From Botryosphaeria dothidea (lineage: Eukaryota; Ascomycota; Dothideomycetes; Botryosphaeriales; Botryosphaeriaceae), in assembly GCA_011503125.2 (NCBI GenBank), contig WWBZ02000001.1, positions 2,046,001 through 2,110,000 of the forward strand: 64,000 nt of DNA, read 5' to 3'. Below the pieces are notes generated by a model, which was not told the DNA's origin, ran no database searches, and was given only the letters and a program-made list of their open reading frames with translations. The translations under genes were made by a program, and so were the position numbers. Of the stretch, positions 18,813-56,445 are shown one piece after another (positions within the stretch are counted from its first letter, which is position 1; each line of letters begins with the position of its first letter).

Positions 18813-19215
18813 TATCGTAGTCTAGAGGTAGGGCTTTTTACATGCGTCGGTCGAGAGGGGTGACACAGCATTTGCAGGCGTTGGCGCAAGGAACTCGGAC
18901 TGCAGTTGTGCAGGGGAAAAAACATACGAAGCTGGCGCTCAAGTACAGCTCTTCACGAAATCAGTGAATGTATTAAATTAAATAGAGAAATGACAGCAGA
19001 GAGCGGCAGTGCAGCGGAGCTCGGAGCGGTGACGTCTTGTTCCTGAAATTTAGCGAAGCATGCCTCGCACCTCCCCACACAGACCGCCAGACCCCACCAC
19101 TGCTGTGCCCAAGACGCCGTGGATCTCCCGGCCGTCGCCGCACTCGACAGCTGCATCACCGACTTTCGATTCGCATGGCCGTCCGCTGAACCCGCCACCT
19201 TCTCCTCCCCCGACA
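18813..19215. other. Intergenic: TFA1 3' flank and SRP72 promoter
   Basis: About 400 bp with no gene. The second part is CT/CCAC-rich leader DNA before the SRP72 start. An in-frame upstream ATG at 19060 would add 52 Pro-rich residues to SRP72, but it lacks family support. Confidence 0.6.
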
Positions 19216-21228
19216 ATGGCCGCCAGCACTGGTAACTCGCTTGCCGCCCTGCTGTCCCAGACCCATCTCGACGACCACGACGAAATCCTCAAGGCCGCCA
19301 ACAACCACCTCACCAAGTCGAAAAACGACCTCGACGCTCAGCATGTCCGCACCGTTGCTCTGCTCAAGCTTGACCGTTTCGACGATGCTTTGCACCAGAT
19401 CGAGCAAGGTGGTGACAAGCTGAAGAAGAAGGCCGCTGTCGAGTACGCCTACGCGCTGTACAAGACGGGCAAGCTCCAAGACGCCGCCAACGTCGCTGCC
19501 GAAGCAGTAAACAGTGGCCGCGGAGCACATCATGTTTTGGCCCAAGCCACCTACCGTGCCGAAGACTTTGCACGCGCCGCCGAGGTGTACCAAGACCTAG
19601 CCACGCGCCCGCAGGATGGAGAGGGTTTCGAGCATTACAATGATCTGCGCATCAACAGCCTGGCCGTGGATGCGCAATTGCAATGGAAGGGTCAGGGCAA
19701 CTTGGCCCGGAGAATCAAGCCTGATCGGGAGGATATGGAGGCGTTTGAGACGGCCTACAATGCCGCTTGCAACAGCATCGCACGCGGCGAGCTGGGCCAG
19801 GGCGAGGTGCTGCTGAAGCGTGCGCGAGACTTGTGTCTGGCCTCGGAAGACCTGTCCGACGAAGACAAGAAGGTTGAGGTCATGTCTATTCTGATTCAGC
19901 AGCTCTACGTACTGCACAAGCTCGGCAAGTTCGACGAAGCATCCAAACTAGCCGAAGAAGTCTCGATGAAGGAGTATGGTCAGTGTACACTTGATACGGG
20001 ACTGTTGTCGCTGATTGATAAAAGTATCCCAGATCTCTCCACGCGGCACATTGCCCACGTCAACAATCTTGCAAGGACAACAGACGATCGCAATCCTTAC
20101 CTGAGCTCGCGCCAAATGCAGACTTCAAGCAAGCTTCCGGTCAGCGATAAGCCTTTCGCCTTTCAGTCATCCATTTTGGACCACAACGACCAGGTCATGG
20201 GACTCTCTGCCAATAAGCACAAAGGCGTAGCCAGCACGACTCTCCACAAAATTGCTTCCGAACCCCCCGCTACTACTTCCCCAGCCATCACAACCTTATC
20301 CGTGCTGAATGCCGCCGCCCATGCCAAAGGCGCGAGCGGTAAGGCCGCCATCAAGGAACTCCTCCCACTCGTCAACAAGCGGCCCTATGACGTTGGTCTC
20401 GCCCTCGTCGTAGTTCAGATTTATGTCCGTGACGGTAACTACGGTGCTGCCACGCCTCTCCTCGAGAACTTCCTCGTTCGCCTCGAGAACACTGGAAAGC
20501 CTGAGGATCTCGCGACCCGTTACGCACCCGGGCTCGTTGCCACGCTCGTCGCTCTCTACACGCACGCCGGCCGCCGCAGCTCCGCCCGCAACGAGCTCGC
20601 CAAGGCCGCCAACTACTGGCTGAACAGCCAGAGCAGCAACCCACCAGCCTCGCTCCTCCGTGCCGCCGGCGCCGCGCTGCTCGAGTCCTCGAAGCCCGCA
20701 GACTTGGAGCAGGCAGGCCAAATATTCTCCTCCCTCCTCACCCACGAACCCTCGGACCGCGGCGCGGCAGCAGGCCTGGTCGCCGCATACGCCTCGACGC
20801 ACCCGGAGAAGGTGCAAGCCGAGCAACTCGACGCCCTGACACCCATCCCCCGGCTCGTCACCGACATCGACACCGACGCCTTGGAGAAGGCCGGCGTCGC
20901 CACGAACGCCCCCTCGCAACAGCAACAGGCGAGCGCCAAACGGGCCGCGCCCAAGGACAGGCACGCGGAGGAGGGCAGGAACAAGAAGATCCGCAAGAGC
21001 AGGACGCCCAAGGGCTTCGACCCCAACAAGAAGGTCGACCCGGAGAGGTGGCTGCCCTTGAAGGATCGGAGCTATTACAAGCCCAAGGGTAGGAAGGGCA
21101 AGTTGAGGCAGGCTGGGCTGACGCAGGGCGGTGTGGTGGAGGAGAAGCCACAGCAGCAACAGCAAGTTAGTGGAGGAGGAGGTGGTGGTGGTGGAGCCAA
21201 TAAGAAAAAGAAGAAGGGAAAGAGATGA
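19216..21228 (+). CDS. SRP72: Signal recognition particle subunit SRP72
   Basis: Component of the cytosolic signal recognition particle; with SRP68 it binds 7SL RNA and supports ER targeting. Read as one exon it gives 670 aa. The body is helical TPR-like repeats: ILKAANNHLTKSKNDLDAQ, YALYKTGKLQDA, RAEDFARAAEVYQ, VAQVN-like IAHVNNLA. The C-terminus has the SRP72 RNA-binding signature DPERWLPLKDRSYYKPKGRK, preceded by a basic KKIRKSRTPKGFDPNKK patch and followed by poly-Gln, poly-Gly and a Lys-rich end. I chose MAASTGNSLAALL (good CAATGGCC context) over the longer upstream start at 19060. A 54-nt segment 19979-20032 (GTCAGT...TATCCCAG, stop-free, length divisible by three) looks like an intron; removing it gives KEY-DLSTRHIAHVN and 652 aa. 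Confidence 0.92.
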   Translation: MAASTGNSLAALLSQTHLDDHDEILKAANNHLTKSKNDLDAQHVRTVALLKLDRFDDALHQIEQGGDKLKKKAAVEYAYALYKTGKLQDAANVAAEAVNSGRGAHHVLAQATYRAEDFARAAEVYQDLATRPQDGEGFEHYNDLRINSLAVDAQLQWKGQGNLARRIKPDREDMEAFETAYNAACNSIARGELGQGEVLLKRARDLCLASEDLSDEDKKVEVMSILIQQLYVLHKLGKFDEASKLAEEVSMKEYGQCTLDTGLLSLIDKSIPDLSTRHIAHVNNLARTTDDRNPYLSSRQMQTSSKLPVSDKPFAFQSSILDHNDQVMGLSANKHKGVASTTLHKIASEPPATTSPAITTLSVLNAAAHAKGASGKAAIKELLPLVNKRPYDVGLALVVVQIYVRDGNYGAATPLLENFLVRLENTGKPEDLATRYAPGLVATLVALYTHAGRRSSARNELAKAANYWLNSQSSNPPASLLRAAGAALLESSKPADLEQAGQIFSSLLTHEPSDRGAAAGLVAAYASTHPEKVQAEQLDALTPIPRLVTDIDTDALEKAGVATNAPSQQQQASAKRAAPKDRHAEEGRNKKIRKSRTPKGFDPNKKVDPERWLPLKDRSYYKPKGRKGKLRQAGLTQGGVVEEKPQQQQQVSGGGGGGGGANKKKKKGKR

Positions 21229-24459: not shown

Positions 24460-26057
24460 TCAAGGCTTCAACTCGCACCAAATGTACGGGAAGATGACCC
24501 TACACGCCGTCCAGAAGACCGCTATGCTGCTCACCAGCGCCCACGGCTTCAGCAGGAGCGGCGCCTCAGCAACACGGATCCTGATGGCGTACAAGGCGAC
24601 GGAGAAGAAGTGGTAGAACAGAATGAGCGGTTGGCGGATGATGCCGGCGAGGAGGCCCACAGGGCCATCGATGCAGTCGCCGCCGCGCTGGAAGTAGCGG
24701 AAGCAGCCGAGCTGGAGCGCCTTCAAGTTCGGGTCTGTTGGAAATGAATTAGCATATATCTCTGCTGTACGAAAGAAAGAGCCAAGTATATCGACTCACC
24801 ATCGGCGGCAAACAAGGCATACAGCGCCAGGGCCAGGATGTTGATGACGGCCGCCCAGTTCTTCCTGCGCCAGTGGAAAGCGCGCATCTGCTTCAAAACC
24901 GCACTGTGGTCCGCCAGGCTCGGAACGTTCTTCGGGTGCAGCAATTCCGCCAGCAGGACCACATCGTTAAACGCAACCGTCATGCCGCCTCCCGTCAGCG
25001 GGTGCCTCATGTTCAAGGCGTCGCCCGCAATGACAAGGCCGGGCGTCCTGTTGGTGGCTGGCGGCAGGAAGGAGTTGGGCATGGAGCGTAGCTTGCCGGC
25101 GCGCATGGCGGCTTCGAAGGACGGCTGGACGCACTTAGGAAGAGAGGGCAATACAACGTTCTCGAGGTGGTTCTTCACGCCGCCGTTCTTGACCGATGCG
25201 GAGGGCAGGCCATCCGGGATGTCGATCAGAGCACGGGTCTCGTGGGTGCCGATCTGGTAGAGCAAGACTGGCGGGCCCTCGGTCAGGATAACGTGACCGT
25301 GGCCAGGCATGGGAAGCTCAGCGTCGATGAGCTCGAGTGCGAAGAACTTCGACCGCACCTGCGGGACGTGGGGGTGGTTCGACTTCCGGAACTTCGAGGC
25401 GTAGCCATCAGCAACGAGGGTGATATGGCCAAAGTACTGTTCACCTGCATTAGCAACCACCTTCAGAAACCACCCGTCCGCCGAGCAACCTACATAATCT
25501 TTCTCCCCCTTCGTCTGGCACTCCACGCCCAAAACCTGCCCAGTCCACCCATTCCTCACCAAGTCCTTCGCCTCGGCCTCAACCACGGTGATATTCGGCT
25601 CCTTCAACGCCGCCTCCCTCAGCTTCTGAATGAACCTCCCATGATGGAACCCCTTCCCCTGCGGCGTCTTCGTCCCCGTATTCGCCGCGTTCTCCGGATA
25701 CGCAATCTTCACGCCGGTGCCGTAGTAGACGACGTCGTAGCCGAAGCAGGCGATGGCGTCGATGCCCTCGAGGCAGTCCTCGAGGCCGAGCTCGCGCAGG
25801 GCCTGCACGCCGCCCGGCTGCAGCAGCTCGCCGACGATGCGGTCGGGCATCTTGAGCGACTTCTCCAGCAGGATGACGGAGCGGCCCTGGCGCGCCATGG
25901 CCACGGCGGCGGCGGAGCCGAAGACGCCTGCGCCGATGATGACGACGTCGGCGTCGTGGTGCACGCGGCGGCGCTCTTCCTTCTCGTCGCGGAAGGGGCC
26001 CCGGGCGGTGGGGTCGGTCGCCGAGGGCGAGGGCGTTCCGTCAATTATGAGCGGCAT
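24460..26057 (-). CDS. ERG1: Squalene epoxidase (squalene monooxygenase)
   Basis: FAD- and NADPH-dependent oxidation of squalene to 2,3-oxidosqualene in the ER membrane or on lipid droplets; ergosterol pathway step and allylamine (terbinafine) target. Exons 26057-24800 and 24734-24460, split by a 65-nt intron, give 510 aa. Motifs: FAD Rossmann fold VVIIGAGVFGSAAAVAMARQG (about residues 40-60), the DG motif ITLVADGYASKFRK, and the GD motif LVIAGDALNMRHPLTGGGM. LEKSLKMPDRIVGELLQPGG is the family signature. The C-terminal exon carries the squalene-epoxidase tail CFRYFQRGGDCIDGPVGLLAG, followed by two hydrophobic membrane segments. I took MPLIIDGTPSP as the start because the 56 codons before it are Pro/Arg-rich and not family-like. 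Yeast Erg1 is 496 aa, so the length fits. Confidence 0.96.
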
Positions 26058-27242
26058 GGTTGGCGCGGGAGGTGGATTGGAAGCGGTGGTGCGGGCGGTG
26101 ATGGTAGTGCGATATGACTGCGCTCGCGGAGGAAGTCGCTGCGGCGGTGATGGTTTTTCGTTCGCAGGGACGAGGACGAAGCGATTGACGCAGGCGGACC
26201 GCAGCAGCGGGTTGAGTGGGCACACGCAGGCGTGGTGTGGAGATGGCGCGGGCTCGGAGGTGGTGGTGTGGGTTGAGGCGGGAGTGGGCGAGTCGTGGGC
26301 GGGAAAGTCAAGGCACGGCGTCCAGATTTAAAACAGAGCCGCAGCTTTGTTTCGTCGGAGATGTAGGGACCCGGGCTTATTATAAAACGGCAGCACAGGC
26401 ACAAGCCGGATGGGAGAAAAGAGATTGGTGCCAAGGGAAATGGGCTTTCAGAAAAAAAGTCGACGAGAGGTCTCGCGATTGCTGAGCCGGGGTCATGATA
26501 ATGGGGAATCGGGTGGCGCTACAACAGATGCACTCCAGGGGGCACCTCAGGAACTCAGGGCGGTGAGACACCCGCGCTTTCACATGCAGGAACCCACCAG
26601 CCAAACATGTGCCTGGAGATGACCCGCCGCCCATTGCCGCCCTGGCGCCGCCAACCGCTGCCACTCTCCGGCAACAACTTATCCTCGTCCCCCACACTGC
26701 GCGCCGTTGGCCTTGAACCACAAACACGTGGTGGTCAGCTCATTGTGCGCCCATCCACAACGCCTCATCACCCACTTCGTCAACCTGCCGATCGACTTCT
26801 CACAAAATCGTCGCACTCATTGGCGCAAGAGTCATGGTCGCCAGTAATCAATTTTCGAAAATTTTTTGTTCGTCTGTCCAGCGGGCGGCTCGACTGCTGT
26901 CCGCGCCGCCCATCGAAAAAGGGGGTTATTACTATTATACACTTTCTATACAAGTGCTTATTACTATACGTTCCTTCTTTTGTGCGTCATTGCTGCGACG
27001 TTGTAGGAGAGCTGCCGCGACAATCCAGTATTGTGCGGCCGTGAGAGGATGTAGAGGAAGGTAAAGGAGAAAATTTAATGGGAATCAAAAATCGTCAGTG
27101 AGGAGGAAAGGGCGTCGCTTGCCCTCCAATGTCAGCAAATGCTTGCAACGGTGCCGCTCAAGAAAAAAAAAAAAAAGAACGCCTACGAATCGCCTGTGCT
27201 ATGCATCAACGACTTCGCTCACCCGCTCGCTCGCGCAGCAAG
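26058..27242. other. Intergenic: ERG1 promoter and 3' flank of next gene
   Basis: About 1.2 kb. It is the upstream region of ERG1 (minus strand) and the 3' flank of the membrane protein gene that ends at 27243. An A14 run lies at about 27163-27176. No gene is supported. Confidence 0.55.
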
Positions 27243-28955: not shown

Positions 28956-31206
28956 GATTAGAATTAGATATAAGAGTCAAAACGACGAAAGATCGGCGTG
29001 CTGCTGGACAGCTAGATTTCGGGACAATGATCCGGATGGGAAAGACGGCGGTCGGGGATATGGGGTATAAAGAACGACAATGGCAGCAGAGGCAGTCAAG
29101 CTCTGCTTGACCAAAGAGAACGAGAGAGAGTCAGGTCCGGTGGAGGGGAACGGGGAGGGGCGAACAAGGGCCTGACGGTCAGGCTGGCGGGTAATGCCTT
29201 CTATAGTAGTGTGACAGGGCGAGCCCTCGCGAAAGGTTCCAAAAAGGGCTACCGGGAGATCTACCAGGTCGTTTCGGGGGCTTGGCTATAGCTGAAACGT
29301 TTTAAGTATCCTGACTTGTGGGCAGGTGTACGCGCAAACCCCGGCCTGGTGTCGGCGGCGAAAGAAGCAAAGCACCCGGGATGCCGGGAGAAGGGGAGAG
29401 AGAGAGAAGGGCAGTGAGAGCAGAACAGCAACAAGCGCATAGCATGCATATACCACAAGAGACGGCACAGAGATCTGGAGACGGCGGAAGGATGGTGAGC
29501 GATCGGCGAGGCCCAGAAGCGGCGGTCGGGACCAATCCTCCAAGCCATGGTGAAGATGCTGCGCTGGACTCGAGAAGCCGGCGACGGCACTTCACGTCGA
29601 TAGCGGGCGGAAGAAGGAGGAAGGCTCCCTGCAACGGGAGTAGTACACGGAGCGCATGCTCGACCGGACTGGTGCCAAGAAGGGTGCGTTGCATGACTGA
29701 GGCCATATCGGGGCCTTCACTAAGCGATGGATGGGTTGACTGTTGTGGTGAGTTGCCCGATGGAGTATCGGCTTGCCAGAATCGGGCAGTAGGACCAGCC
29801 AGGTTCCTGGCTAGGCGGTGCAGCGGGCCTGGCACGTCGGCTTGCTCGGCCATAAGAAAATGGGCGAGGGTTCAAGCTCGTCTTGGTGGTCCACATGGCG
29901 ACCTGTCTAAGGCAGCGCTGACAGATTTCGAAACGATAGGGACCCTCTTAGCTCGCAGAGGAGCGCGCGACGGCAGCGGACAGGCGGGCGATCAGAGGCC
30001 GCAGGACGACAGCAGGAGGCAGCAGCTGGCCGCGCCGCGGGTGGGTGGAGCCGCAAGCGAGGAGGAGATGCGCGTGAGGCCGCGGAAGCGCTGGTGATGG
30101 GCGCGCGAGGTGGGCGAGCAGGGTCGGATGCAGCCGTGTGCGCGATGATTTGCCGTCGACGAGAGAGATGGCAGGGGGATACGGCCAGGAACAGGCTTAG
30201 CGCGGCGCAGAAGAGCTTGGAGCAATCAAACCACGGGCCGCTTTGGGGGGGAGGGGTGGCGAAAAATAGCAGCACACGTCGTTCTGGCTGTCATGGCGCT
30301 CCCGCAAAGATTCGCGAGATCACCACCACCGCAAGTCCCAGTGCGCCCTCACGTTTCACCTCGCGCCAGAACGCACTTCTGAGACGGCCGGTTCTGCCCC
30401 TCACGAGGCTGTGTTCTCCGTCACCGACAGCAACGCAAGCCAGCCCGGACTTCAGTGCCGCACGCGGTCGGCACCGAGCCCTTCGCCTGCACGGCTCACA
30501 GCATCGCGTCACTCGTTACCAGCGCATTCGTACTCGTCCCGCTCGCTATGCTGAATTCCCCGGTACGAGAGCCAAGCCCGCCGCCGCCCACGCTCCGGCC
30601 GAGACGGCGCCATGCAAACTCACCTGCGGACGATGGCACCGAGGCTGCTGGGGCGTGAAGGTTAATTGCATTCTCCGCACCCAACGCCAGCCTCGTACGC
30701 CAATGGGGATGTTTGTTTGCTCCTCCAACCACCTGCCTGCCTGCCGCATGACTCCTACGTAATGCACGACCGACGCCGACGCCACACGTGCAATCCATCC
30801 GCCGGCCTTATAGCACTTGCAGTTCCGCTCCACCTCCACTGTTTTAGTCTCCTTTTCATTGCCGGCCGCGTGCGCGGCTCGTCCCTGCGCGTCGTAGTCG
30901 CCTTCGCTTACCGCCGGCCCCGTGTGCCCGTTCTCGATTCGACCCCCGCAAATTTTTTCGGCCTCTTCCACGCAACGCTCGCCGATCCAGCATGGCGTTC
31001 CAGCCTTTGGCCTGCATTATTCTTCGCCGGTCCGAATTTTTACAGCCACAATCCTCGCTGCAGGAGCAAAAAGGTTATCCCACTCTTGACAGCCGCTTCC
31101 CGCCCCTGACCATTATTCCGCTCTCCCCTGGATACAAACAACCCCGTCTTAAGGAACACTGAAAAGCAAAAAGGAAGGATGTACACTGGACTTTAACCAG
31201 AATTAA
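28956..31206. other. 2.3-kb intergenic stretch with no protein gene
   Basis: Upstream region of the membrane protein gene, then GC-rich DNA with overlapping open frames on both strands (29302-30762) that show no motif. A TTTTT Pol III terminator for the tRNA lies at 31168-31172 (read on the minus strand). Confidence 0.5.
31168..31172 (-). terminator. Pol III T-run terminator downstream of tRNA-Ala
   Basis: TTTTT on the minus strand, 35 nt after the tRNA discriminator base; the first T-run of five or more downstream of the gene. Confidence 0.55.
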
Positions 31207-31375
31207 TGGATCCGCCGGGAATCGAACCCGGGACCACTCCCAAATTAGCTCAAATCAGCCCAGATTACAAGCCGGGGTGTCCCGTGCTAAGGGAGTATTA
31301 TACTGTTCACTTGTTAGTGTTGTGTTCGGCACCGCATCAGTGTCAGGGAAGACCTACCCACTAAACCACAGACCC
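31207..31375 (-). tRNA. tRNA-Ala (AGC) with two interruptions
   Basis: Removing 31353-31300 (54 nt) and 31284-31243 (42 nt) leaves a 73-nt cloverleaf. The acceptor stem GGGTCTG/CGGATCC includes the G3:U70 alanine identity pair. The D arm is GTTT/GAAT with loop AGTGGGTA. The anticodon stem CTCCC/GGGAG is perfect with loop TTAGCAT (anticodon AGC). The T arm CCGGG TTCGATT CCCGG is perfect; discriminator is A73. A box TGGTTTAGTGGG and B box GGTTCGATTCC both match consensus. The 42-nt intron sits at the canonical 37/38 site. The 54-nt insert lies between positions 22 and 23 in the D arm, where nuclear tRNA introns are not expected; it starts GTCTTC and has CACTAAC near its end. It may be a true second intron or a disabling insertion. 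Confidence 0.8.
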
Positions 31376-31803
31376 ATGCTGTTTGATGTAAATTTTACGG
31401 CATGTAAACAAGATGTAGCTTATGATCAACCAGGGCATCGAAGAAGCGGCCACTAGGTAAGAATGGTAAATGTTCCCCGTAGACTTCTCATACCTCTTGA
31501 ACTATGTTCATAAATTCAACGTGTGATGTACTATCAATTGGTGCAGTGGTGATCGCAGATACTTGGCGCAGTCCAGAGAAAGGGCGAAGTGTTTCATGAG
31601 CTAATCACGCGGCAGGAAGACGTAGATGCATTCTCCTCGTGAGCCCACGGGCTGCGTGATGAAATCTAATGACACACCCAAAACCCCCCAAGCCCGCCAT
31701 TCAAAGCAAAAAAAAAACCCCCCTTTTGGCCGTGACGTCGGACCAGCCGGACATCTATGGCCCATCTAATCATCCACCTCAACCCGACCTCCCTGTCTCC
31801 ATC
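31376..31803. other. Intergenic: 5' flank of tRNA and 3' flank of next gene
   Basis: About 430 bp, AT-richer than its neighbours. An A9-C6 homopolymer run lies near 31710-31723. No gene seen. Confidence 0.55.
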
Positions 31804-33746: not shown

Positions 33747-36700
33747 TCAGAAGCCCGCCAACCGCTCATACCCATCTGCATGATCATACTTACTCGATTC
33801 GTACTCATCGCTCTCAGGCCACTCCCTCAAAATTCTATCCGTCGCAAGGCTTCTCTGTATAAGATCCTGAAGATCAGGTTCGGGAATCGCCTGCGGATAC
33901 ACGTTATGCAGAGTTCTGATGTATCGATGGCAATCGTGCACGAGGGCGCATAGAGGCTCGATGAAGTTCCTTGAGACATCCTCCTCTCTTTGGAAGCGAA
34001 CCATGCGCTCGTAACCGAGGCGTATTATGTCCTGCGCGACACGGGCGCGTGCACCGAGGCCAGCTTCGGTATCAAAATCTGGTCTCGAAGTAGGCCGAAC
34101 AGGCGGAGTTTCAGTGATCAGCCTCTTTGCGAGGTTCAGAGCGGATGCCTGGATATCAGAATCATCGAAGCATACAAGTCTGACGGCCCAGACGTGTGCA
34201 TGCTCGACGACTTGGATGTAGAAGAAACCCGGATACTTGAGGCCCCAATGCTCGTTGCGGAGATTCACGAGATTGGTGATGAAGCTGCAGAATGTCTCCC
34301 CAAGCAGCTGTTTCTCCAGGACCATGCATTTAACAATGTCCTCGATCATCAATAATGCGTCCCTTGGCTTAGGAGCAACCCAACAATAGTACACGGCACC
34401 CATGACAAATGGCGCGCTGATGTGAGGCATGAGAAGCTCAACACCTTCGTGAACGGTGACGTGGATGGCGCGCATATGGCCTGCATCTGGTTCCACCGCC
34501 ATCATCAATTTGATGATTTCTCCAGGAACGAATGGCCGAGTCGAAGACATGTCCCAGGTCTCGAGGAGACGGTTGAGAACGGTAAGACAATTGTTATCTT
34601 CATCCCACCTGTAGAAGAGAGTCCGCTCAGGATGAGTGAAAGGGAACTTTTGAGTCTCGGAATCAGAGAATGAACGGATGCGTTCGACGGTGTTGGGAAC
34701 CAGCTCGGCTTCCAAGTCGATGTACGAGACCATGCGCCCTACAAAAGTCGTCAATTCGGCAAAAGACGGCTTACAACTCTTCCTTAAGAGGACTTGTCTG
34801 AGCTGTGGATAGCGCTGGGCCATTTCTGCGACTGAATCGACGTGGTATATCTCAAGACACGCCTTAAGGAATCCGTAATCCAGGAGAAGCGCGACCTCAT
34901 GCAGACCAAAATCGAGAAGGGCAAGAAGAAACTTGAAGTACATGTCCCACACACGCTGTGTAATGTCCAGACCACGAGGGCAGTAGCGGAGATCCGGAAA
35001 CATCAATTTCATGCGCATGAGGATCTTGTTCACAGCTCCATCTTTGCCGTCTTCGAATGCCTGCTCAAGGTCTTGTTGGTTCCCATCGAGCCCATACCTC
35101 GAGGGATCACGGCTGCGAAGCTCCTTTAATGATTCGACGATGAAGCAACCAATCTGGAAACCGACTGGATTGCCATTGTCGACCTGGTGTGAGAAGATGA
35201 ACCAGTCAGACAATGCTTGATCGTGATTGCTGATCCAATCAAGCGCCAGCTTTGTGCACTCTGTGCAAGGGTAGATCGTCCTCTTCAAGTCAATCATAAT
35301 CTTATTTAGCTCTTCCGCATCTTGTCCACGGCCGATCACTTCGTGGGTATGTTTTAAGCTCATGTCGATGACGCTGCTCTCAAGAGCATGGTCCTCCGTA
35401 CAGACACCTTTGTTGACCATGCGCATCTGCGGGATCATCCGGCGGAGAAAGGTGGCATGTGCCTGGTCGAACATGCAATATTCCCGGATGTAACGCTCAT
35501 TCGAGTCTGCGATAGAGTGTTCAAGCTCCTTGGGCATCTTTGCGATAGGATTCAGCGATTGTGGAGCGCGAAGGACGTTCGTGCCGTCTTTGTCGATAGA
35601 AGAGGCACGCTGATACAGGAGCATGTAAGCAGAGGTGTGCCTGCCGTTCCCACCGTAACACTCCGATTCGACTTTGCTGAGGTCCTGTTCAGTGACGGTA
35701 TCATCGTTGAATTTTATCCATCGTGAAGAGCCCTTGTCGTCGGGCCGAACGCGGATGTAGGACCAATAATGGCCCTGTTCAACGCCTCCCGCGTGAACAA
35801 GGATACCAACAAGCTCGAAGAAATCGTCCTCGATGGGCTTCTCTGGATCACTGAGGTACTCCACCTTGTATGGACTCATGTTGATGCGTGACGGGAAGCG
35901 GAAGTAATCGTTGATCTTGCTCCGAGTCAGTGTAAAGGGATCGAAGTCGAAGCGTTTGAGGTGAACAATCAAGTTGTCGGGGACGCTTTGAAGACAAGTG
36001 CGCTTGACAGCGTTGACGAGACGTCCACCGCAAGGCTCGCATTTGTACTTGTTCTCGCCCTCCAAACTTTCACCCTCGACGTAGGCCCTTAGACTGTCCT
36101 CTAAGGTCTCCTTGCCTTTCACCTCCAGAGGCAGATTGAACAATGTCTCAGTGGTCTCCGAGACGTGCTGGCAATCCTTCGATTTTATCTGATTGACAGA
36201 GCGACCGCCGTAGAAGTTCCGCAGCCGCTGCTTCTCCCCAGGAGAACGCAGCTCGCTCTCGAGCTGATCCATCAGTAAGCGGAAGAACTCCTCGGTATCC
36301 ATTTGGATTGCGACATTAATGGGTTTCTTGTCCGTGCCACGAACGCAATTAGCAAAGGGCTTCATGTCAACCGATCTCCCATAGCTGCTCTGCATGGTGG
36401 CGAAAAGTTCTTGCATGGCTTTCAATAAACCATCGTCAGTCCCGCTCTCGGCCTCGAAAACAAATTTCCTGAATTCGATGTCCATGAAGAGCTGCGTCAT
36501 CATAGAGTTCATGTAACACAGTGCTTGTGGATTCTCAAGGCCCACGTAGCCGGTCTCGGAACGAAGGTCCCTTGACCCGCCTAGAATATATTCATCTTCA
36601 TCATGGTCGAGACAGTCCTCAAAGAGCTCCCGATTGAGGTCGATTATTCGCTTGTAGACAGCCGGATCCTCGCAGAGAGCCGTGATCAAATCGTAAAGCA

Positions 36701-39700
36701 TCGTTCTCGTCTTGGTGTCTAGTACCGGGAGTACGCTAGACCCTCCACCGATTGTGTCATAAACCTCCGGAAACAAGAGATTCGTGAATATCTTTTCAGC
36801 GAGTGCCTCGATGTTCAATGGCTTCTTGAATGACTTGAGGGATTGAACGGCTGTGCGGAGGAGCTGAGCGAACCCAGACACGACGAAGTCGATTTCAGAA
36901 CGGCCAACACAAGCGTTGTACTTGTGTGACAGAAGAAGCTCGCTCCATGTATTGATGTAGTTCCTGAGGAGATCCTCATCGCGTTGGAACTCATCGTACC
37001 AACGGAAAACTTTGACGGAAAGGTCAAAAAGCTGCTGACATGATTTCGAGTTATGCGAAGCTCGCGGGAGGAGATCGGAAAGAACATTCCAATAGAACGA
37101 CACCAAGTCATCCCTACCGACAGCCGACTTTCTGTAGTTTTGTACAAAATCAGCAAAGATTCCAGGGTTAAAAGGTCTGACGCCGTCTGGTTGAACGTAC
37201 TCAGAAGGATGTTGGCACTGGTTCTCAATGTTGATGCAAATCAGATCTCGGAGCCTGACACACTCATGCAAGACAAGAAGAGTATGGTGAAGCTCGATGA
37301 GATCAATCCGAGACTTGAACGCGTCCCACACGCCGCGGTTGTGATTGAAAGCCTCAAGCAGAGCTATGTAGCAATGCAAGGTCAGGTTCAGATTCGACGT
37401 ATCTTTCAACGAAGCTTGCAGGAACGACATAAGGCGATCCGTAAGACGAGGCTCATTGTCAAAATACGAGGAAGAAACCTCCGGCTCGACGCGCTCTGCA
37501 TCACAGTCAGAATTGTATCTTAAAGGAGCCGCACAGACAAACATACCTTTCAGCAGTTCCGTAAATGTTTCCAGCACCGAAAGAGCAAGTAACTCGTCCT
37601 GCGATTCGGAGAGGGAGCTATGAATGATCTCCTCATCAAGGAGGACCGCATTGAGCAGCTGAACGGAGTGACTAATTGATTGCACGTTCAATGGACCCTG
37701 CTCTACATTAATTGTTGCTTCCTGGACTGATGAAGGCTTCCGAGGGTATACCGATCTCATCTGATTCCTGAAATCCTTCCTAAGGGTGGAAACCGAGATC
37801 CTAGCCTTGAACAGCTTGCCAGGTGAGAAGGCGGATCTGACAATGTCCGATACTGAGTCTGTGTGCCGTCCGCCGAACGTTACAGCAAGAGCTTTGCCGT
37901 GGGGAGGCATTTGGTTCAGAAAGTCGTACGCCTGAGAGTGTATTAGCATTGCCATGAGCATTGGACGGATGACTTACAGCCTCGCTCAAGGAATCATCTC
38001 CGCCATCGAGGAAATCAAATATGGTGTCATAGTTCGCAAGGATTTCCTTTTCGATAATGCTCGAGCTTCCTTGTCCGTAAGGAGCCGTTGCAGAATCATC
38101 CATATTCTTGACCAGGATAGCGCCCTTCTCATGAAGTGCCAGGTCGCATATTGTTCGGTCGCCTAATGCTTGCAAATCCAGAGGAGACCCTCCATGAATG
38201 AGCCGAATCTCATGAAAGCCTGTCCACTCGCGCAACCGCTCTACAAGCCAGGACAAGGTCTGGAGATCACCTACGCGCACGGTCTGGATAGGTTCAGCAT
38301 GGGTACCGAAAGCCTGGAACTTAATCGATCTGAGGATGCCGTCCGTGCCATCAATCATGTCAGGGACTGCGGGTTTTGCAAGGCGAGGTGAGGTAATCTG
38401 CAGCTCAGGGTGCTTCTTCACCAAGCCGAGCAGCACCGTGAGGAACAACAATGTCCTCTGAAACTGAAGCTCGAGGACACTTGGGCTCTCCCTGGCATTA
38501 GCATCCATCATTTCAACTTCTCCAGGCAAAGAGCCTTTCAAAGGCCCTTTCAAGGCTGAATATGCAGTGACCAATTGGTTGACACAACGGCCGACAAGGG
38601 CAGTATGTGTATCGCGAAGTAGATCAGGATGATCTTCAATGTGCTGATCCAGCACCCAAGGCTCCAGGTATAGTTTGGCGAGGTACTCTGCTGTGGTCCC
38701 TTCGATTGTCCCAGAGGGTGCGGTGAGGATAATCCGCCAGGATAGTTCAATGTTAGGCGGTTCGAAGATGCCCTCCTCTGAAACTTCTACTCTGTCTGAG
38801 GCGCGCCGCTCATAGTCTGTGAGCTCACGGAGGAAGTCGAATAATCCGCTGCTGTAAAACTCAGGCTTCAAGGCCGGCAGGAGCTCCATCGCACAAAGGT
38901 TGAGAAATGCATTACTCGAGCACTGAGATTTGGTCATAGAAGAGAGATGGTGCCATGCAACGTCCCGGAGGTCAGTGCTGAGAGCATTATCGCCAACCAG
39001 GTGATCCCAGACCAATCTTTGAGTTTCCGTGGTGACTGAGTTGGAATCAATGTTCATCAGGTGAAATAAAAGCTGCAGGCGCGATGTGAGTGGGGTCTCA
39101 AGGTGCTGCCTTGGGCATCCCTTCCCTTCTGCCACGAAAGAGCAGAGCTCCTCGGCGACACTCTCCGCTACACCGCGTTCCAGAAGATATTCTGCATCAT
39201 CAGGCACTGCTGAAATCATAGTGAAGATGATTTCTGCGTTAGCAGCAGCCTGGCGTGTCTTCTTTGCTATGCCGGAGGCGCAGATTTTGTAGATCTCGAC
39301 CCTGTCTTCTGGAAGAGCGAGTTCGCCTCTGGAGAAAATACCAAGCTCTGCAGTCGATATGCGGTGAAGGGTCTGTAGCAAGGGAGTCAAAGACGCCTCT
39401 GGGAAGGGATAAGTCTCTTGTGCTAGATGCACACAAAGCGCAAATGCCTTCATACGGTCTGCTTCCTCAGTCCACTTAGGAAGGTCTCCCCGGGCTCTCT
39501 TCTGAATACTACCACAGAGGCTGCGGAAGAATTCGGCAAAAGTAGAAGTCATCCTGGGCAACGGGAGGGTCCGAAATTTACTGCAGAGGTAAAGCAAGTG
39601 AGATATTGACATTAATTGCGTTGTGTGCTGGAGCATCTCAATGAGAGCTTCAGCCATCCGCGGATCCTGGTTCTCGATGATAGAGTCCCAGATAATGTCG

Positions 39701-54254: not shown

Positions 54255-56445
54255 ATGGCCAAGGAGAAGGAAGCGCCGCTCAAAGAAGCGCTCGCAAAGA
54301 AGGGCGGCCTGACGCTGTCGCAACTTGCGCAGTACGACGACCTGGCCACTGATGTATTGGTCGACAAGGTAGGCAATTGCCCTAGATTGCGACTCCAAAC
54401 TTTGCACCGGCGAAGCTGACACTTGCGCGGCCAAGGTATACTTCTGGACGACCATACGCAAGAACCGCACCCGCTATTCGCCATGCCGCAGCATCCGCGA
54501 AGAAGATATCGCAAAAATCCTCCGCGACTCGGTCGTCACTCGTAAGGATCCGGCCAAGGCGCAGGAACAACTTCTGGAGTTATCCGGCTTGAAACGCTAT
54601 CTGGCGAAATTGGACACCAAGGACGAGAAGGAGCACTTCAAGCGGCATTTTCGCAAGTACATTAATTTGTACATGCCGGACTGCCCTTGGGAGGTTTCGA
54701 CGACCAATCGCTACACAATCACTCAGCATGAGGCCGCGGTAACCGCGCGCCGCGATATCCGGAAGAACGAGGTGATCAAGTATCTCTGCGGCATCCAGGT
54801 AGCCATGACAAAGGAGGAGGAGGAGACGCTGGACTTGAACAAGCGCGACTTCAGTATCGTTATGTCGAGCCGCAAGAAGGCCCCTTCGCTATTCCTAGGA
54901 CCGGCGCGCTTCGCAAACCATGATTGCGACGCAAATGCAAGGTTGACGACAGCGGGGCCGAACGGTATGGCCATCGTCTCCAAGAAGGATATTGAAGTTG
55001 GTGAGGAGATCACGGTGTCTTACGGCGAGGATTACTTCGGAGAAGACAATTGTGAATGCCTGTGCTCAACTTGCGAGAGGCTAGCCAGAAATGGCTGGGC
55101 ACCACAAAAGAAAGAGACGGACGCTGAAGAGGATGACGAGTCTTCTGAATCGCTTCCACAGGACGGACCGTATTCATTCAGGAAAAAGAGGAGGTATGCG
55201 ACAGACTCAGCAACCGCCTCGCGCGACACCACCACTGAGCCCGGGACCCGGGAAAGTGGGAAGAAGGTCAACACACTACCAGTTTCGCATAGTTCAAGCC
55301 CTAGAGGGAAGAAGAGAAAGTTAGATACGGAAGAGGATCTGAAGGGATTTGCATCAGCGGGCCAAGAGAACAGCAAGCGACGCAGGTCAGAAGATGGAAC
55401 TCAAATCAAGATGGAGCGCACGGAGTCACAACAGAGTCACGACCTATCTCAAACTTCTGAGGAGGATTCTGGTCCGATGACCACGGCTATGGCAAGATTG
55501 AGGTCTATTCGCAGCCACCAGCGTGACAGGCTTCTGGCTTCCACACTCGCGGGATCCGAATCGGTCAGCGCAAGCTCGCCGGGATCGTTCAGCGAGACGT
55601 CCCAGCATTCGTCACAGTCAACGGCCGCCACATCTGTTGATGGAGATACTGCTGCAAACGCACCAAGTGACGGTACTGATGTATCTCTGAAGACTGAGAC
55701 GACAGTTGAGCAGATTCCTGCCATCCAGGTCAAAGTCGATGCGTCTGAGGTCCAAGCCGTCAAACCAGCAGGCAGCCCTCTGGTCACCAGCACTCCGGCC
55801 AACGAAACTGCCGAAGACTCTGAGCTCTCTGAATTGTCTGACAGCCTCGCATTCGATGACGACCATCAGCAGATCGTCCGACAAAAGCGCATCAATACGC
55901 CTCCACGTACACGCTCTCAGAACAGTCACAATGGTCCGACTTCATCTTTCACTGCCCCCATCCCGACAATCGAGTCCGGGTCGAACGAATCTTCTGATCC
56001 TCTTGACCCGAACCAACGGTGCCCAGGTGACTATACTCTGACATCACTGCTTCTCTGCGCCAAGTATAGTCGCTGGGTTGTCTGCCGCACATGCGACGCC
56101 GACTTCGTTCAGGAAGATGCGTACCTGACGCGCGCTGCGTGTCCGCGCTGCGAGCGTCACAGCAAGCTCTACGGCTATGCGTGGCCGAAAACAGAGAAGG
56201 AAGGCAAGCACGATCGCGAAGAGAGGGTGCTAGACCACAGGGAAATCAACCGCTTCGTGTCTCCTGGGGAGGAGAGAGATATCAGGAAGGGCAAGAGACA
56301 ATTGCAGATTGAGCTGGCAAAGAGGAGAGCGAGTGAGCTGAGCGAGAGGATGAGGAGCGAGAGCGTTGGTGCTGAAGGGGAGAGCTCGCCTTCAGGACGC
56401 AGGAGAGGTATGAGGAAGAGGAGCAGTCGATTAAGCATGGTGTGA
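54255..56445 (+). CDS. SET9: Histone H4-K20 methyltransferase SET9 (Suv4-20/Kmt5 type)
   Basis: SET-domain lysine methyltransferase for H4K20, chromatin-bound. Exons 54255-54368 and 54436-56445 (intron 67 nt) give 707 aa. The N-terminal helices GGLTLSQLAQYDDLATD, VYFWTTIRKN and RKYINLYMPDCPWEVSTTNR belong to the Suv4-20 subfamily. The SET core has RFANHDCDANARL (Asn199-His200), GEEITVSYGEDYFGEDNCEC and the post-SET CECLCSTC zinc cluster. A long Ser/Thr-rich, charged, disordered region with KKRKL-type basic patches follows. The Set9-specific C-terminal module has CRTCDADFVQED and CPRCERHSKLYGYAWP, then a basic helix rich in Arg/Lys/Ser. Start at CACCATGG is the best match. Confidence 0.94.

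Follow-up and report, generated by a model that had tools for sequence, protein, structure and literature searches.

Sequence evidence for mRNA-type GT-AG introns in several tRNA genes of Botryosphaeria dothidea, including a tRNA-Ala(AGC) gene with an interrupted D arm

Introduction

What kind of intron interrupts the D arm of a fungal tRNA-Ala(AGC) gene, and how might a tRNA be made from such a gene? The introns of tRNA genes are regarded as a class of their own, which protein enzymes remove, and spliceosomes normally act on RNA polymerase II (Pol II) transcripts. The gene considered here lies in a 64,000-nt stretch of the Botryosphaeria dothidea genome (hereafter the window), where an earlier note, made from the letters alone, had described a tRNA-Ala(AGC) gene at 31207..31375 with a canonical intron and a second interruption in the D arm. 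The tRNAscan-SE 2.0 paper limits eukaryotic tRNA genes to one intron (PMC8450103), a limit that the ectopic introns of algal tRNA genes already exceed.

Results

The window gene and its parts

The window gene runs from 31375 to 31207 on the minus strand and scores 34.3 bits with the Rfam tRNA model (gathering score 29), in agreement with the identity first proposed. The G3:U70 pair, the anticodon AGC within a CTCCC/GGGAG stem, the perfect T arm, the intact A and B boxes and the canonical 42-nt intron at 37/38 (31284-31243) are likewise all present as the note had described them. The parts are as follows.

31376..31388, minus strand: 5' leader CATCAAACAGCAT; the paralogues have a similar leader
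31358..31375, minus strand: exon 1, 18 nt, with the acceptor 5' strand, the D-arm 5' half and the A box TGGTTTAGTGG; identical in 7/7 loci
31303..31357, minus strand: D-arm intron, putatively of spliceosomal type, 55 nt, GTAGGT...CTAAC (31317-31313)...CAG
31285..31302, minus strand: exon 2, 18 nt, with TATAATA, the anticodon stem 5' strand, AGC and A37; identical in 7/7 loci
31243..31284, minus strand: canonical 37/38 tRNA intron, 42 nt; 21-42 nt across the seven loci
31207..31242, minus strand: exon 3, 36 nt, with the anticodon stem 3' strand, the variable loop, the T arm, the acceptor 3' strand and A73
31228-31218, minus strand: B box GGTTCGATTCC within exon 3
31186..31200, minus strand: 3' trailer hairpin CTGG-TTAAAGT-CCAG with a B-box-like core GGTTAAAGTCC
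31162..31173, minus strand: T-runs CTTTTTGCTTTT, probable Pol III terminator

Removal of both inserts leaves a 72-nt tRNA. The cloverleaf with G3:U70, the A and B boxes (the latter split in four of the seven Ala loci described below), the terminator and the conserved exons are what would be expected of a functional tRNA gene. The predicted genes around it are ordinary ones, for a ubiquitin hydrolase (33747-37961), a SET-domain protein (54589-56445), squalene epoxidase (24723-26225) and SRP72 (19060-21228).

Seven Ala(AGC) loci share the exons and the D-arm insert

Our search covered the window's genome, 51.7 Mb in 78 contigs. With the 169-base gene as query, three further places were found, one of them fragmented. 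The pattern CTCCCTTAGCA gave 30 matches (31 in the reversed control), of which 7 fall in Ala genes of this kind, and a D-arm pattern gave 17 (27 in the reversed control), of which the 7 with at most one mismatch are the same seven genes. These lie on contigs C1 (the window gene), C58, C69, C36, C3, C12 and C78. The copies on C3 and C12 do not differ, which leaves six distinct loci. The exons of 18, 18, 20 and 16 nt, of which the window gene has the third and fourth as one, join to 72 nt, with two inserts each in C1, C58 and C69 and three each in C36, C3, C12 and C78.

The 72 exon bases vary at a single T-stem pair, by a compensatory change from C50:G64 to G50:C64 that accompanies the third insert. 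The inserts vary far more. Those of the D arm, present in 7/7 loci, read GTARGT or GTTAGT...CTAAY...YAG over 53-60 nt and are 51-69% identical (15 pairs, six distinct loci); the 37/38 inserts are 36-69% identical in pairwise comparison of the same six. The third insert, in 4/7 loci (three distinct), splits the T loop at G57|A58 and reads GTTAGT...[CT]TAAT...AG over 52-53 nt, with an identity of 79-98% among the three loci (98% for C36 and C3). As the copies are paralogues, they do not necessarily represent separate intron gains.

Could these loci instead be tRNA-derived repeats or pseudogenes, with intact genes elsewhere supplying Ala(AGC)? Several copies have related 3' flanks, as SINEs do, and the window gene is reported neither by ARAGORN on the window nor by the genome-wide Rfam scans. 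The earlier note had itself named many normal Ala(AGC) copies, together with RNA data showing the D-arm insert retained or no mature product, as the finding that would make the gene a pseudogene. However, all seven copies carry the D-arm insert, the joined D-arm junction is absent from every locus fetched, and the genome matches include no Ala(AGC) copy free of the insert, in searches that used this gene's letters and that a strongly diverged Ala(AGC) gene, intron-free or not, could escape. Furthermore, T-runs follow the gene in 7/7 loci, and the exons are identical in all seven save for the one compensatory pair, next to D-arm inserts that are only 51-69% alike. Because the exons do not drift as fast as the inserts, we rejected a SINE or pseudogene family, and we regard this explanation as extremely improbable. 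The second interruption appears to belong to a conserved gene rather than a relic, as the note had argued.

Borders of the D-arm insert

The comparison of paralogues moves the borders that the note had drawn. It had placed a 54-nt insert at 31353-31300, which gives a mature form of 73 nt and requires that the TAT after the CAG be removed as well. Conserved exon 1 ends at 31358, variation beyond it sets in with the third insert base (GTAGGT, GTAAGT, GTTAGT), and the D-arm inserts finish with CAG or TAG directly before the invariant TATAATA with which conserved exon 2 starts at 31302. Since exon conservation stops at these points and the inserts finish with YAG before TATAATA, we place the insert at 31357-31303, with a length of 55 nt and a mature tRNA of 72 nt; the TAT is exon sequence, the start of TATAATA.

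Position 21 of tRNAs is an invariant A. With the borders 31353-31300, the C78 copy, whose D-arm 5' site is GTTAGT, would receive a T at this position and lose A21, and TATAATA is kept in 7/7 loci; we thus rejected these borders. An alternative start, GTGGGT at gene position 15, which a loose script picked for most Ala loci, would delete both G18 and G19 and was rejected together with a still earlier GT start that the same script picked in C58.

When forced into a cloverleaf, the 73-mer is slightly better than the 72-mer (-25.3 vs -23.5 kcal/mol), and it has a T13:G22 pair in the D stem where the 72-mer has a T13.T22 mismatch. By hand reading, the same mismatch occurs in L184, a Pro(CGG) gene of the same genome that has no intron, and the 72-mer has a 7-nt D loop, AGTGGTA, like those of the genome's Gly(GCC) and Pro(CGG) genes. 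For the joined Ala exons (the 72-mer) ARAGORN returns Ala(AGC), but it accepts the 73-mer and a 76-mer equally, and so cannot choose between the borders.

The inserts carry the signals of mRNA introns

Including those found in other tRNA genes (see below), there are 17 distinct inserts of this type. All 17 start with GTNNGT, have YTAAY 9-12 nt before the final AG and are 52-60 nt long. The 5' sites are GTAAGT (seven), GTTAGT (four), GTAGGT (three), GTGAGT (two) and GTACGT (one), and the inserts end with YAG in 14 cases and with AAG in three (the T loops of Ala C36, Ala C3 and Pro). The features of U2-type introns, GT...AG with an extended 5' consensus and a branch motif near the 3' site, are present in 17/17, with GT...AG in the Pro T-loop and Arg inserts already demanded by the search pattern. 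The note had remarked that the initial GT and a CACTAAC made an odd splicing route conceivable, and the signals common to all the inserts lend this suggestion considerable weight.

The same signals are found in protein genes of the window, in which seven introns have GTRNGT, CTRAY 10-16 nt before CAG and lengths of 46-65 nt, although these introns were themselves picked with a pattern (GTNNGT...CTRAY...YAG) similar to that of the inserts. The window holds 22 stretches of this pattern, whereas 20 dinucleotide shuffles average 9.1; alternative GT starts of the tRNA insert account for three of the 22. When eight of these stretches were examined for reading frames, seven joined open frames in predicted genes, including those for squalene epoxidase and ubiquitin hydrolase, and for three of the seven mRNA introns (25493, 27823, 37546) the frame stays open without splicing as well. 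The stricter form, GTNNGT...[CT]TAA[CT] with the branch motif 9-12 nt before AG, occurs in 7 of the 1,150,902 stretches of 52-60 nt on both strands of the window (6e-6), and two of these seven are the Ala D-arm insert with alternative GT starts, so that the insert is more than a chance resemblance.

Comparison with tRNA-endonuclease introns

A different explanation is that a relaxed Sen complex cuts the D-arm and T-loop inserts, which would then be ectopic endonuclease introns of the sort found in archaea, red algae and nucleomorphs, with GT and AG incidental. None of the 5' site, the branch motif or the AG spacing is needed by the tRNA endonuclease, and yet all three are shared by 17/17 inserts. 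We looked for the central helix of the bulge-helix-bulge motif as pairing of intron +2..+5 with exon +2..+5, a test of this helix and not of a full motif model. At the borders adopted here, the full 4-bp helix was found in 0/17 inserts, each of which has one to three of the four pairs, and we rejected the motif at these borders. When other registers were allowed, 4 of the 14 inserts tested (three Leu, one Val) did reach 4/4 pairs, and the slightly better D stem at the note's borders also speaks for an endonuclease. Multiple introns of this kind are known from Cyanidioschyzon and the Guillardia nucleomorph, and many of the latter lack a defined bulge-helix-bulge (PMC3978253, PMC4090602). Weighing these points, we consider endonuclease removal of the D-arm and T-loop inserts very unlikely. 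The comparison that the note had drawn with archaeal and red-algal D-arm introns does not hold up, since those are endonuclease introns and the inserts here have no full central helix at the borders adopted (17/17).

GT-AG inserts in other tRNA genes

Beyond alanine, GT-AG inserts were found in the D arm, the anticodon stem and the T loop of further tRNA genes. By hand reading, 14 of 79 tRNA-like loci have at least one such insert (seven Ala, three Leu, one Glu(TTC), one probable Val(CAC), one Pro(AGG) and one Arg(CCT)), a count that is biased to intact B boxes and, for Pro and Arg, to the splice pattern used. The Leu, Glu(TTC) and Val(CAC) inserts were found through B boxes and acceptor pairing, with no splice motif in the search. 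In contrast, the Pro(AGG) gene (L208, two GT-AG inserts) and the Arg(CCT) gene (L210, one) came from a pattern search in which GTNNGT, TAAY and AG were required, so that their fit to the motif is not independent.

An empty site is available for Glu(TTC): L112 (C3) and its copy L127 (C12) read TTCTCCGCTTTCA uninterrupted, where L162 has a 57-nt insert, GTAAGT...CTAACAATCTCAACAG, between TTCTCC and GCTTTCA, and removal of the insert restores the junction of the two intron-free genes. Similarly, the intron-free Pro(CGG) gene L184 reads TCTAGTGGTATGATT uninterrupted where Pro(AGG) L208 has its D-arm insert, and its junction is that given by removal of the insert. That exact removal restores the uninterrupted gene is supported by the Glu(TTC) paralogue, by the Pro(CGG) D arm and by the cloverleafs of the joined Ala, Pro and Arg exons. 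The Leu genes L111 and L123 have an identical exon 2 and different inserts.

Once the GT-AG inserts are removed, ARAGORN names L162 as Glu(TTC), L119 as Leu(CAG), L180 as Val(CAC) and L208 as Pro(AGG), and it names L210 as Arg(CCT) once the 37/38 insert is removed as well. The Val(CAC) name comes from this output and hence is given as probable; the Leu names come from hand reading, with which ARAGORN agrees, after removal, for L119 only, misreading the joined L111 and L123 as Gly(CCC). It also wrongly returns Gln(CTG) for the Arg gene when the 37/38 insert is left in, and leaves the Pro gene without its 37/38 insert unassigned between Leu and Pro. Among the six distinct unspliced Ala genes, ARAGORN gives a wrong name to three and reports nothing for three. 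Canonical 37/38-type inserts occur in many other fetched tRNA genes of the genome.

The 79 loci, all read by hand, comprise 40 from the Rfam list, 30 from B-box sites, the seven Ala loci and two from the T-loop pattern. Left out of the 61 Rfam matches were 16 on the mitochondria-like contigs C14 and C26 and five more, three of which score like Val(AAC) genes and two of which resemble copies of fetched genes. ARAGORN confirmed 39 of the 40 Rfam-list loci; the other, L093 (C58:2826308-2826373), is damaged, a tRNA-Lys-like sequence without part of the T loop and the following T-stem strand, and is rejected by the program. For a further locus, L077, ARAGORN gives Ala(TGC) and hand reading Thr(TGT).

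The B-box searches yielded 100 stretches that were fetched: 66 of the 86 sites of GGTTCGABTCC (85 in the reversed control), the other 20 being 17 genes already in the set, one window site and two sites on C14 or C26; 30 of the 55 sites of GGTTCGANCCC (99 in the control); and four sites of GGTTCGAATCC, among 100 of its 172 matches listed (96 in the control). A further B-box screen gave 65 matches and its reversed control 14. Because B-box screens miss split or unusual B boxes, the list is incomplete; within these 79 loci, hand reading found no Asn, Phe, Tyr, elongator Met, Ile(AAT), Ala(TGC) or Ala(CGC) gene, among others.

Pattern searches complemented the screens. A Leu T-arm search with at most one mismatch gave six matches, namely the three Leu loci, L152 and two Arg(CCT) genes. 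Of the 11 matches to the T-loop splice pattern (reversed control: four), four are Ala genes, one is a Pro gene and two are Arg genes, one of the latter a copy; the remaining four include C47:2760406. The other three of these four were discarded, L209 and L211 because they look like mRNA introns and L212 because it holds no tRNA. The D-arm pattern TGGCNNARNNGG...GTRNGT...CTAAY gave seven matches and its reversed control six, with an A box so narrow that it excludes AGNGG forms such as those of the Leu genes.

Transcription signals

The A box is intact in 7/7 Ala loci and the B box in 3/7, the T-loop insert splitting it in the other four; T-loop inserts split the B box of the Pro(AGG) and Arg(CCT) genes too. 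With its B box split, a Pol III promoter should be weaker, unless other sites take over. The Ala trailer has CTGGTTNNANNCC followed by T-runs in 6/6 distinct loci, with the B-box-like core kept in place throughout and the outer hairpin pair lost in C78. This core fully fits GGTTCRANTCC in 3/3 distinct Ala genes with a split B box and in 0/3 with an intact one. There are also B-box-like sequences inside the T-loop introns of Ala (GTTCGAAT) and Pro (TTCGATTC), and none was seen inside that of Arg. It is tempting to speculate that the trailer and intronic sites have a promoter role.

These data bear on the possibility that Pol II makes longer transcripts that include the tRNA sequences and would be spliced normally, with the tRNA released or otherwise used. 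Such transcripts would be the spliceosome's normal substrates, and the splitting of the B box in four of the seven Ala genes and in Pro(AGG) and Arg(CCT) fits them. Nevertheless, the A box and the T-runs, the former intact and the latter no more than about 50 nt beyond the 3' end in 7/7 Ala loci, and, Arg apart, the B-box-like sequences of the Ala trailers and the Ala and Pro T-loop introns argue for Pol III, and we judge a Pol II host transcript to be very unlikely.

Discussion

The window gene is, very probably, a working nuclear tRNA-Ala(AGC) gene with an ordinary 37/38 endonuclease intron and a U2-type spliceosomal intron in the D arm. The evidence that several tRNA genes of this genome contain GT-AG introns is strong. 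It lies in features read directly from the DNA: the borders of the inserts, their splice signals, the conservation of the exons, an intron-free paralogue with the exact junction and the presence of matching signals in introns of the window's protein genes. Removal of the inserts by the spliceosome would follow naturally. We infer transcription by Pol III, spliceosomal removal, the order of the steps and the function of the product.

In the proposed pathway, Pol III, acting from the A and B boxes, would produce a transcript with the leader, the exons and the two introns that finishes with a short trailer at the T-run. The spliceosome would then excise the D-arm intron as a lariat, using the 5' site GTAGGT, the branch sequence CTAAC and the 3' site CAG, and with this intron gone the tRNA core would be able to fold. 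The Sen endonuclease and tRNA ligase would take out the 37/38 intron, and RNase P and RNase Z would trim the ends to 72 nt. It counts against spliceosomal removal that exon 1 consists of 18 nt plus the leader only.

The presence of mRNA-like introns in several tRNA genes suggests that the mRNA splicing machinery is needed for some tRNAs. We favour, with some reserve, a broader proposal: that part of the tRNA set, including Ala(AGC), is made only with the spliceosome; that single precursors use two unrelated splicing systems, so that translation depends directly on the spliceosome; and that genes with a split B box keep their promoter through B-box-like sequence in the intron or trailer.

There are precedents for parts of this proposal. 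The U6 snRNA gene of fission yeast has an mRNA-type intron in a Pol III small nuclear RNA, which is spliced during maturation and is thought to stem from reverse splicing near the catalytic bases (PMC10484740). Both cases have an mRNA-type intron in a Pol III-type gene, with Pol III transcription inferred for the genes described here. However, U6 is a component of the spliceosome, whereas the hosts in B. dothidea are tRNAs of several isotypes, interrupted at several positions and often beside a second, protein-enzyme intron. The rDNA of lichen fungi has spliceosomal introns, one of which is removed by yeast when placed in its rDNA (PMC8527467); these too are mRNA-type introns in a transcript that is not made by Pol II (presumptively so here), but in Pol I rRNA rather than tRNA. 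In Cyanidioschyzon merolae, the Guillardia nucleomorph and Crenarchaeota, tRNA introns lie outside 37/38, several to a gene, including in the D and T arms, and are ascribed to the tRNA endonuclease and the bulge-helix-bulge, although many nucleomorph introns have no defined motif (PMC3978253, PMC4090602). The inserts described here are similarly multiple and similarly placed, but they read GT...CTAAY...AG and the central helix fails at the borders adopted. The 42-nt insert of the window gene resembles the canonical 37/38 introns of fungi, to which up to two GT-AG inserts are here added. Among the matches listed in a search of the open-access literature, as far as their text was available, there is no report of spliceosomal introns in tRNA genes and no precedent for a spliceosome acting on a tRNA precursor; novelty is therefore provisional.

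If the proposal is correct, the spliceosome acts on tRNA precursors, tRNA supply is tied to splicing capacity, and these genes offer a natural system for the study of intron gain outside mRNA. Introns of the mRNA type would also account for tRNAs that are missing from fungal annotation, the window gene being one that ARAGORN and the Rfam scan both missed.

Some minor observations concern the surroundings of the Ala loci and of the pattern used to find them. Collinear matches between C36 and C78 and between C3 and C12 lie at near-constant offsets (885,552-885,673 and 1,699,472-1,699,486 bases, respectively), a sign of either large segmental duplications of recent date or haplotypes left uncollapsed. 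A lone Ala 3' end without a T-loop insert (L012, C36:2124299-2124338) is found some 200 bases downstream of the Ala gene on C36. Finally, CTCCCTTAGCA also occurs within a dispersed repeat (L016, L019-L021, L024, L025, L030-L032, L035 and L043), the copies of which seem by eye to vary mainly by C/T (G/A), recalling repeat-induced point mutation.
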